The notes under the pieces are model-generated. The model did not search any database and was not told the origin of the DNA. It saw only the letters and a list, made by a program, of their open reading frames with translations. From Lachnospiraceae bacterium (GTDB lineage Bacteria; Bacillota; Clostridia; Lachnospirales; Lachnospiraceae), in the NCBI GenBank assembly GCA_017420605.1, contig JAFOIS010000085.1:1-13358 (forward strand): a DNA stretch of 13,358 nucleotides, in the 5' to 3' direction. Both the position numbers and the translations under genes were made by a program. Shown here piece by piece: positions 618 to 5,117 of the stretch. The first letter of the stretch is position 1. Every line of letters starts with the position of its first letter.

Positions 618-646
618 TTTACACCGGAGACACTTGTGTATATAAT
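618..646 (+). promoter_or_regulatory. Sigma-A promoter for the M20/DUF5058/PLP operon
   Basis: TTTACA (618-623), a 17-nt spacer and a perfect TATAAT (641-646) make a near-consensus promoter. Transcription should start near 653, giving an unusually long leader of about 140 nt ahead of the start codon at 792. It is divergent from the GNAT promoter at 504-532. The stretch 465-791 holds these two promoters and the structured leader, and no gene that I can support. Confidence 0.75.
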
Positions 647-652
647 GAGAAT

Positions 653-777
653 AGTTTTTTGTACAGCTGCCGCTTTCCTGCAATAATGCGATAAAGCGGC
701 AGGGAGCCGGTCACAGGCAGTGTTCGGTTTGCAGGCACGATGCTTTTCGTGCATTGCCGAACCGCCGGTCAGTATAA
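653..777 (+). promoter_or_regulatory. Structured 5' leader of the amidohydrolase operon
   Basis: Two stem-loops are visible in the RNA between the promoter and the ribosome site. The first pairs CTGCCGCTTT (667-676) perfectly with AAAGCGGCAG (693-702), with a small inner GCA/TGC pairing in its loop. The second pairs GTTCGG (722-727) with CCGAAC (757-762) and contains an inner hairpin GCACGA/TCGTGC (735-740 with 747-752). An alternative register CGGTT/AACCG (725-729 with 760-764) overlaps the outer stem. Neither hairpin is followed by a T-run, so they are not plain terminators. I recognise no known riboswitch or T-box consensus. A regulatory role is inference. Confidence 0.45.
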
Positions 778-791
778 GAAAGGAGAACAGA

Positions 792-1997
792 ATGGCAGCT
801 GAATGGGCGGTGAAGATCAGAGATGCCGCAGATGCGCTCGCGCCGCAGCTCCGGGAATGGAGGGAGGCCCTCCACCGGCATCCGGAGCTTGGCCTGGAGA
901 CGCCCTGGACGCAGGAATACGTATGGAACGAACTGGTGAAACTCGGCTGTGAGCCGAAGAAATGCGGCCAGGCCGGCATCACGGTCCTGCTCGGAAAAAA
1001 GGAAGGAAAGGTCTTCCTCCTCCGTGCGGACATGGACGCTCTCCCGCTGACCGAAGTTTCGGAAGAGAGTTTCTGCTCGCAGAATCCCGGAAAGATGCAT
1101 GCCTGCGGGCATGACATGCATACGGCCATGCTGCTCGGCGCCGCAAAGATCCTGAAGGAAAATGAAGACCTTCTCGAAGGCCGGGTGAAACTGATGTTCG
1201 AGTCGGGCGAAGAGACCGGCAACGGCGCGTCGGACATGATCGCCGGCGGTGTGCTCGAGGATCCGAAGGTCGACGCCGCGGAAATGATCCATGTGGCTGC
1301 AGGCGCCCCGTTCCCGACCGGGCTTCTGCTGATTCCGCAGGGCGGGACGGGCGCATCCGCGAGCTGCTGCTTTAAGATCACCGCCACCGGAAAAGGCGGA
1401 CACGGCGCCATGCCTTCTGTCTGCGTCGACCCCATTACCGCGCTGTGCCATATCCACAGCGGGATCGAGGAGATCTTCGCCCGCGAGGCCGAACTGTGCG
1501 ATTTCCTTGCGATCACGGTCGGGCAGTTCCATGCGGGCAACGCGCCGAACGTCATTCCGAATACCGCGGAAATGTCCGGCAGCATCCGCACGATGAGCGT
1601 TGAAAAAATGAAATGGGCGCAGCAGAGGATCCGTGAGATCGCGGAAGCGATCGCGGAAGCATACCGCGCGAAGGCGGACGTCGAATACACGGGATTCCTG
1701 CCTCCGCTGATCGCGGACAAAGACACGGCGGACAGCGCCGCGTCGTACCTTGCCGAGATCTTCGGCAGCGGCGCCATGCGGATCCCTTCGGATACGAGAG
1801 GCGGCGGCAGCGAAGACTTTGCCTTCATTTCCGCGGAAGTGCCTTCCGTGCCGCTCTTCCTCGCGGCGGGCAACGCAAACGAAGGTTATAAATACCCTGC
1901 GCATCATCCGGGAGTCCGGTTCGACGAGACGGCGCTGCCGCGCGGGACCGCGGCCCACGTCTACATCGCGATGCGCTGGCTGGAAGAACACAAATAG
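792..1997 (+). CDS. M20-family metallo-amidohydrolase (deacylase/aminoacylase type)
   Basis: A 401-aa cytosolic hydrolase of peptidase family M20 (the M20D-like aminoacylase and hippurate-hydrolase group), which removes an acyl or related group from an amino acid using two divalent metal ions. Visible motifs are R78-A-D-M-D82, then HACGHDMH (103-110) with the Cys105/His107 metal site, the catalytic pair E140-E141, and IHV with H167. A GKGGHGAMP motif marks the dimerisation (lid) domain, GGGSEDF the next conserved block, and H371-H372 the last metal ligand region. There is no signal peptide. The start at 792 is chosen because AAAGGAGA (778-785) lies 6 nt upstream; an in-frame start at 720 has no such site and would add 24 poorly conserved-looking residues. 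It is first in an operon with two membrane proteins and a PLP enzyme, so it probably acts on an imported substrate. The exact substrate is not readable. Confidence 0.9.
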   Translation: MAAEWAVKIRDAADALAPQLREWREALHRHPELGLETPWTQEYVWNELVKLGCEPKKCGQAGITVLLGKKEGKVFLLRADMDALPLTEVSEESFCSQNPGKMHACGHDMHTAMLLGAAKILKENEDLLEGRVKLMFESGEETGNGASDMIAGGVLEDPKVDAAEMIHVAAGAPFPTGLLLIPQGGTGASASCCFKITATGKGGHGAMPSVCVDPITALCHIHSGIEEIFAREAELCDFLAITVGQFHAGNAPNVIPNTAEMSGSIRTMSVEKMKWAQQRIREIAEAIAEAYRAKADVEYTGFLPPLIADKDTADSAASYLAEIFGSGAMRIPSDTRGGGSEDFAFISAEVPSVPLFLAAGNANEGYKYPAHHPGVRFDETALPRGTAAHVYIAMRWLEEHK

Positions 1998-3524: not shown

Positions 3525-3563
3525 ACACAGCGGTGCCGGAGATGATCCCGGGAGGATGAAGAG

Positions 3564-5051
3564 ATGATCGACCTTACGGTCAACCGACAGGGGCTTGCCC
3601 ACAATATTGAAACCGCACGGGAGCGGGGCATCATCATCCCGACGGTCGCACAGATGCGGGATCCCTCAAGGATCCCCGAAGCGATCCGCGAAAAACTCTC
3701 CTCCGTCGGCCTTTGGGATGTCGATCCGCTGAACCTGTTCCGCATTTCCTGGAAAAACGAAGCCAAAACGTCCGGCGGGCAGTTCCAGAGCATTCCGAAC
3801 TATGTGGACTTCCCGCCGGTCCTCACGGGCGTCCCCTGCCGCATCATCGCCGCGGCTGGAAAGTGGTTCCCGACCGGCTGCCACAAAGTCGGCGCCGCCT
3901 TCGGATGTCTTGCGCCGCGCCTCGTGACAGGCCGCTTTGACGTACAGCGCCACAAAGCCGTCTGGCCGTCCACGGGCAACTACTGCCGCGGCGGCGTCTT
4001 CAATTCACGCCTTCTCGGCGCGCAGAGTGTTGCGATCCTGCCGGAGGGCATGAGCCCCGAACGCTTTGCCTGGCTGCATGAGATCGGCGCTGAGGTGATC
4101 GCGACCCCGGGTACCGAGTCCAACGTCAAGGAGATCTTCGACAAGACGAATGAACTGCGGCAGGATCCGCAGTATATGATCTTCAACCAGTTTGAGGAAA
4201 TGGGCAACGTGCTCTGGCATTACAACGTGACCGGCAATGCGCTTGCCGACCTTTTCGAAGGTGTAAAACGGCCCGGCGAACGTCTGGCCGGCTGCTGCTT
4301 CACCTCGGGCTCGGCAGGCACGCTCTCCGCCGGAGACCGGCTGAAGGACCTGTACCCTCAGATGAAGATCGGCGCCGGCGAGGCGCTGCAGTGTCCGACG
4401 ATCCTCCGCAACGGCTTCGGGAGCCACCGGATCGAAGGGATCGGCGACAAGCATATCCCGTGGATCCACAATGTCAGGAATACGGACATGGCCATCGCGA
4501 TCGACGACGAGGATCCCCGTCGGCTTCTCCGGCTCTTCAATACGGACGCGGGACGCGCGTATCTTAAAGACGGGGCCGGGCTGGATCCGGAGCTTATCGA
4601 GAAACTCTCCTGGCTCGGCATTTCCGGGATCGCAAACGTGCTCTGCTGTATCAAAATGGCGAAATACTACGAGCTTTCGTCAAACGACGTCCTCGTGACC
4701 GTCCTTACCGATTCCGCTGCGATGTACGGAAGCCGGATCCGGGAGCTCGGCGAAGAGGATGCCGCGGCCGGCAAGACCTATACCGGAACTTCGGCCATGC
4801 TCGACCATCATCTCCATATACTCGGCCTGAAGACCGACAATATGCTCGAACTTACCTATGCGGAACGGAAACGCGTGCACAATCTCAAGTATTATACCTG
4901 GGTCGAGCAGCAGGGAAAAACAGCCGAAGAACTCGACGCGCTCTGGTATGATACGGAAAATACCTGGGATGCGGCACATGCCGGGGCGGATACGCTTGAT
5001 GCGCTGATCGAAGCATTCAATGAAGAGACAGGGCTGCTGAAGCGCCTGTAA
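3564..5051 (+). CDS. Fold-type-II PLP-dependent enzyme (cysteine synthase / TrpB superfamily)
   Basis: A 495-aa cytosolic enzyme of the tryptophan-synthase-beta/cysteine-synthase fold, typical of amino-acid beta- or gamma-elimination, replacement and deamination. TGCHKVGAA (104-112) gives K108 as the probable lysine that binds PLP, in a TrpB-like G-x-H-K setting. PSTGNYCRGG (135-144) resembles the Ser/Thr-Gly-Asn loop that holds the substrate carboxylate. TSGSAGTLSAG (247-257) is the Gly-rich loop that grips the PLP phosphate. The protein is well over 100 aa longer than a typical O-acetylserine sulfhydrylase, with an extra N-terminal region of about 85 aa and a long C-terminal part. GGAGG (3551-3555) lies 8 nt before the ATG. 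As the last gene of the operon it would process the amino acid released by the M20 enzyme. The M20-plus-PLP-lyase pairing recalls ygeX/ygeY in enteric bacteria, but this is not close enough to call diaminopropionate ammonia-lyase. Confidence 0.85.
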   Translation: MIDLTVNRQGLAHNIETARERGIIIPTVAQMRDPSRIPEAIREKLSSVGLWDVDPLNLFRISWKNEAKTSGGQFQSIPNYVDFPPVLTGVPCRIIAAAGKWFPTGCHKVGAAFGCLAPRLVTGRFDVQRHKAVWPSTGNYCRGGVFNSRLLGAQSVAILPEGMSPERFAWLHEIGAEVIATPGTESNVKEIFDKTNELRQDPQYMIFNQFEEMGNVLWHYNVTGNALADLFEGVKRPGERLAGCCFTSGSAGTLSAGDRLKDLYPQMKIGAGEALQCPTILRNGFGSHRIEGIGDKHIPWIHNVRNTDMAIAIDDEDPRRLLRLFNTDAGRAYLKDGAGLDPELIEKLSWLGISGIANVLCCIKMAKYYELSSNDVLVTVLTDSAAMYGSRIRELGEEDAAAGKTYTGTSAMLDHHLHILGLKTDNMLELTYAERKRVHNLKYYTWVEQQGKTAEELDALWYDTENTWDAAHAGADTLDALIEAFNEETGLLKRL

Positions 5052-5087
5052 ACGAAACATGAAAAAAGCGTCAGATCCTATAGCAGA

Positions 5088-5117
5088 AAAAGGTGCGGCG
5101 ATGAAGCCGCACCTTTT
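5088..5117. terminator. Bidirectional intrinsic terminator
   Basis: A perfect 12-bp stem, AAAAGGTGCGGC (5088-5099) with GCCGCACCTTTT (5106-5117), has a 6-nt loop, a T-rich tail on the plus strand and a T-run on the minus strand. It lies between the converging ends of the PLP-enzyme gene (5051) and feoB (5186), so it can serve both operons. Confidence 0.85.

Follow-up and report, generated by a model that had tools for sequence, protein, structure and literature searches.

N-acyl amino acids, glycine conjugates, and dipeptides are common in the gut and rumen, and to our knowledge, the routes by which bacteria take up such conjugates are mostly unassigned. The window analyzed here, a 13,358-nucleotide stretch of a Lachnospiraceae genome (GenBank assembly GCA_017420605.1, contig JAFOIS010000085.1, positions 1 to 13,358), contains an operon of four genes that encode an M20 hydrolase, the membrane protein DUF5058, a second membrane protein with the working name MEM2, and a fold-type-II pyridoxal phosphate (PLP) enzyme. 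The undescribed two-part membrane unit, DUF5058 and MEM2, is the main find of the analysis. Labels beginning with L, G, and P denote the loci, genomes, and proteins compared.

Several described systems resemble parts of this operon. The abgABT gene set encodes the transporter AbgT, a single protein, and the M20 enzymes AbgA and AbgB. The likeness lies in an amide-conjugate importer that adjoins M20 hydrolases, and the window M20 aligns with an aminobenzoyl-glutamate utilization protein (3io1, E value of 9e−26). In place of the single AbgT, however, the window encodes two small membrane proteins with no detectable homology and no AbgT match in Pfam, which returned DUF5058 alone for gene 2 and nothing for gene 3 (10 window open reading frames [ORFs] scanned against Pfam and NCBIfam, E ≤ 0.001). 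The AbgT proteins MtrF and YdaH are listed in PMC7329351 with two hairpins and inverted repeats. The yxe operon of Bacillus subtilis is described in PMC9706529 as combining ATP-binding cassette (ABC) transporter genes (YxeMNO) with the N-acetylcysteine deacetylase YxeP, which frees cysteine. Transporter genes thus accompany a deacetylase in that operon, and among solved relatives of the window M20, YxeP ranks second, but an ABC importer stands where DUF5058 and MEM2 stand here, and the Pfam matches of the 10 ORFs include no acetyltransferase or monooxygenase. The reductive uric acid cluster ygeW-ygeY-ygeX uses an M20 enzyme and then a PLP enzyme, with pyruvate as the end product, according to PMC12507026. 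It shares this succession with the window, whose PLP enzyme has relatives next to members of the cluster, but the window enzymes miss the YgeY and YgeX models, and the genome has no YgeW over the cutoff.

Heteromeric transporters of the small multidrug resistance type consist of paired antiparallel, homologous four-helix subunits. They resemble the window pair in being two small proteins of opposite (here predicted) orientation within one unit; the window proteins differ in having about six helices and a long loop each and in lacking clear homology to one another. Small genes of this kind may be the ancestors of inverted-repeat transporters (PMC6805155), and elevator-type transporters mostly consist of inverted halves, many with hairpin gates (PMC7329351). 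What the window pair shares with the inverted-repeat elevator-type transporters is two halves in opposite orientation, as predicted from the charge pattern.

Conservation of the DUF5058-MEM2 pair and its hydrolase

The operon has the following features:

618 to 646, forward strand: promoter-like site TTTACA-17-TATAAT, 11 of 12 consensus bases (consensus match alone)
653 to 791, forward strand: leader from the promoter-like site to the M20 start, with a strong predicted fold and a perfect 10-nucleotide inverted repeat (667 to 676 and 693 to 702)
792 to 1997, forward strand: M20D amidohydrolase, 401 amino acids (profile and motif evidence)
2022 to 2726, forward strand: DUF5058 membrane protein, 234 amino acids (Pfam PF16481)
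2742 to 3524, forward strand: MEM2, a membrane protein without a family name, 260 amino acids (ORF, hydropathy, and conservation)
3564 to 5051, forward strand: fold-type-II PLP enzyme (PALP), 495 amino acids (Pfam profile and aligned motifs)
5088 to 5117, forward strand: intrinsic-terminator-like hairpin 3′ of the operon, 12 pairs

A previous sequence-only reading of this DNA had described four tightly spaced genes that share one promoter and one terminator, and this layout was borne out, with gaps of 24, 15, and 39 nucleotides. The same reading called both membrane proteins uncharacterized. This needs amending for gene 2, which belongs to a named, though uncharacterized, family (Pfam DUF5058, PF16481; 150.7 bits against a cutoff of 28.2), and it stands for MEM2, which has no match in Pfam or NCBIfam (E ≤ 0.001). 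The open-license literature searched names DUF5058 or PF16481 nowhere, and no title or abstract start found there names a DUF5058-MEM2 system.

DUF5058 is patchily distributed, scoring over the cutoff in 33 of 150 genomes of the family, each from another genus, and in 31 of 398 genomes of the phylum. Dropped from these sets were G086 (internal stop), G089, and G100 (below cutoff) in the family and G669 and G707 (below cutoff) in the phylum. The 79 loci compared comprise 39 from the family, 30 from the phylum, 7 from MEM2 searches of the genus and the order (the remainder were found through DUF5058), and the window, L003, and L004. DUF5058 and MEM2 occur together at all 79, with MEM2 found by gene calling at 74 and by six-frame search at the other 5; L146 was scored as a pair despite a stop that splits its DUF5058. 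Three more loci stand outside this count (L184 to L186): both genes were called at two of them, L185 being mis-called, and two have an M20-type gene. Gene calling was crude, neighbors may have been missed where contigs end, and family scans covered selected neighbors.

At 67 of the 79 loci, the pair has an M20-type gene no more than three genes away: 37 of 39 in the family set, 22 of 30 in the phylum set, 5 of 7 among the loci found through MEM2, and all 3 of the window, L003, and L004 (on the same strand at 36, 22, 4, and 3, respectively). Counted per gene, M20-type genes make up 40 of 185 near genes versus 2 of 181 far genes in the family set (Fisher P = 5e−11), an enrichment that is partly circular because the profiles were built from clusters of that set, and 26 of 127 versus 0 of 95 in the phylum set (Fisher P = 2e−7). 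Eight phylum loci lack M20, and four of them carry another amide-bond enzyme behind MEM2, namely, C45/AAT (L145), an amidohydrolase (L164 and L168), or M42 (L170). A fifth, L162, carries PGA_cap, and no amide-bond enzyme was seen at L151 and L172, where neighbors were partly scanned, or at L155, which lies at a contig edge.

The pair also occurs outside the phylum, on plasmids of Natronococcus occultus, Halobellus limi, and Paracoccus pantotrophus (three of four plasmid matches were opened). An annotated "amidohydrolase" adjoins it on all three, and the two that were scanned, those of Natronococcus and Paracoccus, match TIGR01891. Two fecal scaffolds labeled "Bacteriophage sp." (L192 and L193; two of four matches in a phage collection were opened) hold M20, DUF5058, and MEM2 and are outside the counts above. 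The gene identities, the pairing, the association with M20, and the opposite charge pattern described below are direct observations, and a conserved unit of three genes (amide hydrolase, DUF5058, and MEM2), not four, is well supported.

Two further observations concern the unit in this genome. No MEM2 with more than 38% identity to that of the window was found at the genus, family, order, and phylum loci compared, while relatives of about 60% identity occur at L003 and L004, one of them in a metagenome-assembled genome from water buffalo rumen; positions 792 to 3524 may have been laterally acquired. The genome also encodes another DUF5058-MEM2 pair, with about 30% identity (L001, contig C95 of G000, positions 102 to 1665). 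A divergent 362-amino-acid gene, which we take to resemble LDH2-type dehydrogenases, adjoins it, and the 3,144 bases read contain no M20.

A putative split transporter for masked amino acids

We propose that DUF5058 and MEM2 would together make up one secondary transporter, of a so far undescribed family, in which neither subunit is dispensable. Each would supply a half with about six helices and a gate-like loop, and the two halves would face opposite ways in the membrane. This transporter would import a small amide-linked compound, which could be an N-acyl amino acid or a conjugate resembling a dipeptide. In the cytoplasm, M20 would then split the amide, and the freed amino acid would be used by an additional enzyme, which varies from lineage to lineage. 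In the window, that enzyme would be the PLP enzyme, most likely carrying out β-elimination or β-replacement on a serine- or cysteine-type amino acid. Taken as a whole, the combination of split antiparallel importer, M20 cleavage, and lineage-variable amino acid enzyme is in our judgment an even call. More tentatively, the DUF5058-MEM2 pair could define a split antiparallel transporter family for amide-masked amino acids in Bacillota-type gut bacteria, Alphaproteobacteria, and haloarchaea, with interchangeable amino-acid-degrading enzymes (serine ammonia-lyase, SDH_alpha, glycine cleavage, and here the PLP enzyme) that reveal the cargo. DUF5058 and its unnamed partner thereby gain a specific, testable role as a two-protein, oppositely oriented importer for masked amino acids, and if the neighbors vary with the amino acid that is released, gene neighborhoods could be used to predict what each version carries.

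Both proteins follow a common order of two helices, a long moderately hydrophobic loop, and four helices. DUF5058 has six hydrophobic segments; the last two helices of MEM2 form one segment by hydropathy and two in the structure model. Most of the best-conserved residues lie in the long loops: W83, R85, S87, G90, and E95 of DUF5058, which like P62 are invariant in 36 aligned sequences, and G93, N94, N97, and P101 of MEM2. The MEM2 model places two short helices in this loop (residues 85 to 92 and 99 to 109), and the corresponding part of the DUF5058 model has low confidence at residues 82 to 90. Lysine and arginine are in excess on the predicted inner relative to the outer loops in 36 of 36 DUF5058 and 48 of 48 MEM2 aligned sequences, counted on the same alignments on which the loops were picked, and also in all three DUF5058 and all three MEM2 sequences of three organisms outside the phylum. 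This opposite charge pattern predicts that DUF5058 has both termini outside and MEM2 has both termini inside. Since elevator-type transporters mostly have inverted halves, we read the two genes as encoding one antiparallel transporter, of which DUF5058 and MEM2 are likely the halves. The heteromer, transport, its direction, and the substrate are what we infer from this arrangement.

Homology between DUF5058 and MEM2 was considered and is not claimed: hhalign gave an E value of 0.036, yet a probability of 1.4 over 39 columns.

Structure comparison matched neither protein to a solved fold, of a transporter or otherwise. These inconclusive comparisons would also allow the pair to be a receptor or membrane enzyme or to serve the hydrolase as a scaffold, but a polytopic pair of opposite charge pattern, with polar conserved loops, no added domain, and a soluble enzyme next to it, would follow the usual plan of small-solute transporters, and a role other than transport seems to us improbable.

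The M20 hydrolase, the PLP enzyme, and their genomic neighbors

The window M20 matches TIGR01891 (M20D amidohydrolases) with 299 bits against a cutoff of 153.75. It has the metal site motifs (C105, H107, E140/E141, H167, and H371), to whose residues we presumptively assign ligand or catalytic roles, and its HACGHD, EE, H, and C-terminal H align with those of the solved ILR1-like 2 and YxeP structures. It matched 18 NCBIfam families but not the YgeY model TIGR03526, which the YgeY-type protein of L095 does match. Because it has no N-terminal hydrophobic segment, it is probably cytoplasmic. The 67 M20 proteins examined beside the pair are of two kinds: the window type (300 bits or more) has such a segment in 0 of 37, and the other kind has one in 28 of 30. 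Lysine and arginine are commoner behind the segment in 23 of these 28, before it in 1, and equal in 4, a weak test that points to the segment-bearing enzymes lying inside the cell.

The segments bear on a different division of labor, in which hydrolases release a free amino acid outside the cell, the pair imports it, and the cytoplasmic M20 has an unrelated internal substrate. The 28 segment-bearing enzymes could be anchored outside, as this would need; the absence of the segment from the window type and the charge pattern behind it in the other kind speak against such a division, which we regard as unlikely.

If the transporter takes up masked amino acids, its neighbors may include enzymes for the released amino acid. 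L-Serine ammonia-lyase β and α genes stand directly behind MEM2 at L069 and farther downstream of the unit at L064. At L070, a 425-amino-acid SDH_alpha protein, which we take to resemble L-cysteine desulfidase, is encoded behind MEM2. On the two haloarchaeal plasmids (L189 and L191), DUF5058, MEM2, and the amidohydrolase lie within about 2.1 kb of glycine cleavage genes, which in Natronococcus precede the unit on its own strand and in Halobellus lie on the opposite strand with two genes between. This proximity suggests that the haloarchaeal units carry glycine conjugates as cargo. The serine ammonia-lyase, SDH_alpha, and glycine cleavage neighbors fit a scheme of import, unmasking, and an added enzyme set by the amino acid, and the window would be the PLP version of such a unit. 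These five cases come from neighbors that were picked for scanning or were already annotated.

The catabolic nature of the annotated neighbors (serine ammonia-lyase and glycine cleavage) also bears on the direction of transport. Amide hydrolysis is reversible in principle, PM20D1-type enzymes are reported to run in the condensing direction, and the 28 of 30 second-kind M20 enzymes with an N-terminal segment may act at the membrane, so that M20 could condense N-acyl amino acids or dipeptides for secretion by the pair. LysR- or PucR-type regulators adjoin some loci, however, as expected for uptake and degradation, and with the catabolic neighbors, they make export through the pair a remote prospect.

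One further locus has a neighborhood of its own. At L073 (positions 2138 to 7992), M20, DUF5058, and MEM2 are followed by a lipoate ligase, an 80-amino-acid protein that presumably resembles a lipoyl domain, a radical S-adenosylmethionine protein, and a second lipoate ligase. Might this version serve lipoyl conjugates or glycine cleavage?

The PLP enzyme of the window matches the PALP profile (43.7 bits, cutoff of 35). K108 and an STGN loop (residues 136 to 139) are present in all 140 close homologs aligned and are the predicted Schiff base lysine and substrate loop. Among its eight NCBIfam matches (E ≤ 0.001), the YgeX models TIGR03528 and TIGR01747 are absent; the YgeX-type protein of L095 matches them. 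Its best scores are to cysteine synthases, far under the cutoff (TIGR01139, 80.2 bits against 350.95), and on this basis, we infer β-elimination or β-replacement as its likely chemistry. This enzyme family is common, with at least 8,000 candidate homologs. Counting the genome of the window itself, relatives occur in 25 of the 42 genus genomes and 7 of the 150 family genomes. We fetched 20 loci from the 30 other genomes with a match. A threonine-synthase-like gene lies near the PLP gene at 19, ygeW, ygeY, or ygeX at 17, serC at 9, and ssnA at 9 (names come from one scanned representative per cluster), and relatives of the window's other genes lie near it at none at the clustering threshold.

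Several results weigh against a place for the PLP enzyme in the proposed pathway. The sequence-only reading had expected the four families to be found together in other genomes, and this expectation failed: by PLP profile search, all 78 other DUF5058 loci lack the enzyme, and the window alone has it. The other scanned neighbors (symporter, glycosyltransferase, phosphoesterase, HAD, PepSY, and solute-binding proteins, among others) show no link to amino acid degradation, and the PLP step itself draws on one locus and on analogy. Of the import-and-deacylation unit in that reading, the membrane pair (79 of 79) with an amide hydrolase (M20 at 67 of 79) is conserved and the PLP part is not; the idea of an amino-acid-using enzyme after deacylation survives through L-serine ammonia-lyase and the like in a few relatives. 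Its likeness to ygeX/ygeY fails at the level of the two models and persists in the neighborhoods of PLP relatives.

These results give substance to a narrower explanation, in which the unit consists of M20, DUF5058, and MEM2 and the PLP enzyme is a cotranscribed neighbor serving serine/phosphoserine or purine metabolism. It coincides with our preferred explanation for the first three genes. The nearest operons found, L003 and L004 (MEM2 about 60% identical), both lack PLP as read. L003 is uninformative on this linkage because its contig runs for about 165 bases past MEM2 and then stops; a close PLP homolog is absent from that genome (best identity of 28 to 32%). The L004 unit was read for about 5 kb on either side without a PLP gene, and a 64% identical homolog lies elsewhere in that genome among its usual neighbors by size and order. 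The neighborhoods of PLP relatives described above fit the narrower explanation as well. On the other side, the gap between MEM2 and PLP is 39 nucleotides, the terminator scan found no forward-strand terminator between 3524 and 3564, and a strong one follows PLP; a few related units hold other amino-acid-degrading enzymes; and the window's genome (93.9% complete) has no YgeW over the cutoff and no match to the threonine-synthase-like partner in a search without a positive control. We consider the narrower explanation possible, if somewhat doubtful. In our preferred explanation, the PLP gene may be a local addition to the operon that uses the released amino acid, and its step in the pathway is plausible.

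A second four-gene operon was sought through MEM2 in 42 genomes of the genus (threshold of 1e−10), 392 of the order (1e−30), 103 of the family of G947 (1e−40), and 394 of the order of G948 (1e−40), and no opened locus had PLP. The MEM2 homolog P0002 (83% identical) and the PLP homolog P0124 (80%) lie on contigs outside the loci examined. In a tree of the 140 close PLP homologs, the window enzyme clusters with P0124, P0125, and P0127, in a clade of 11 tips that includes none of the fetched loci.

The PLP relatives at L094 to L113 and L187 form a recurrent arrangement of their own: they pair with the threonine-synthase-like gene, often also with serC, and ygeWXY/ssnA genes adjoin them. In the main text of PMC12507026, the term "threonine synthase" does not appear.

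Expression signals and other features of the window

The promoter-like site at 618 to 646 ranks best of nine such sites in a consensus scan of the window. Only this rank is notable, because shuffled sequence gives 5.8 sites (standard deviation, 2.2) at the scan threshold. The leader, computed on positions 653 to 800, folds with a minimum free energy of −55.8 kcal/mol (z = −3.22; 0 of 200 shuffles equally low). It has no match in Rfam, and its hairpins have no counterpart in L003 or L004, where the alignment does not span them; the leader is a possible cis-regulator. The M20 start was set at the ATG at 792, which is preceded by AAGGAG (780 to 785). A longer frame from a GTG at 720 was judged a mechanical ORF. 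The hairpin at 5088 to 5117 has the most pairs of the 19 terminator-like hairpins found (shuffles, 11.8; standard deviation, 3.5).

Elsewhere in the window, ORFs of 268 (12332 to 13138, reverse strand), 527 (7833 to 9416, forward strand), and 157 (10484 to 10957, forward strand) amino acids have no Pfam or NCBIfam match (E ≤ 0.001). Downstream of the operon, a single 837-amino-acid ORF on the reverse strand (5186 to 7699) joins FeoA and FeoB domains through a long linker.

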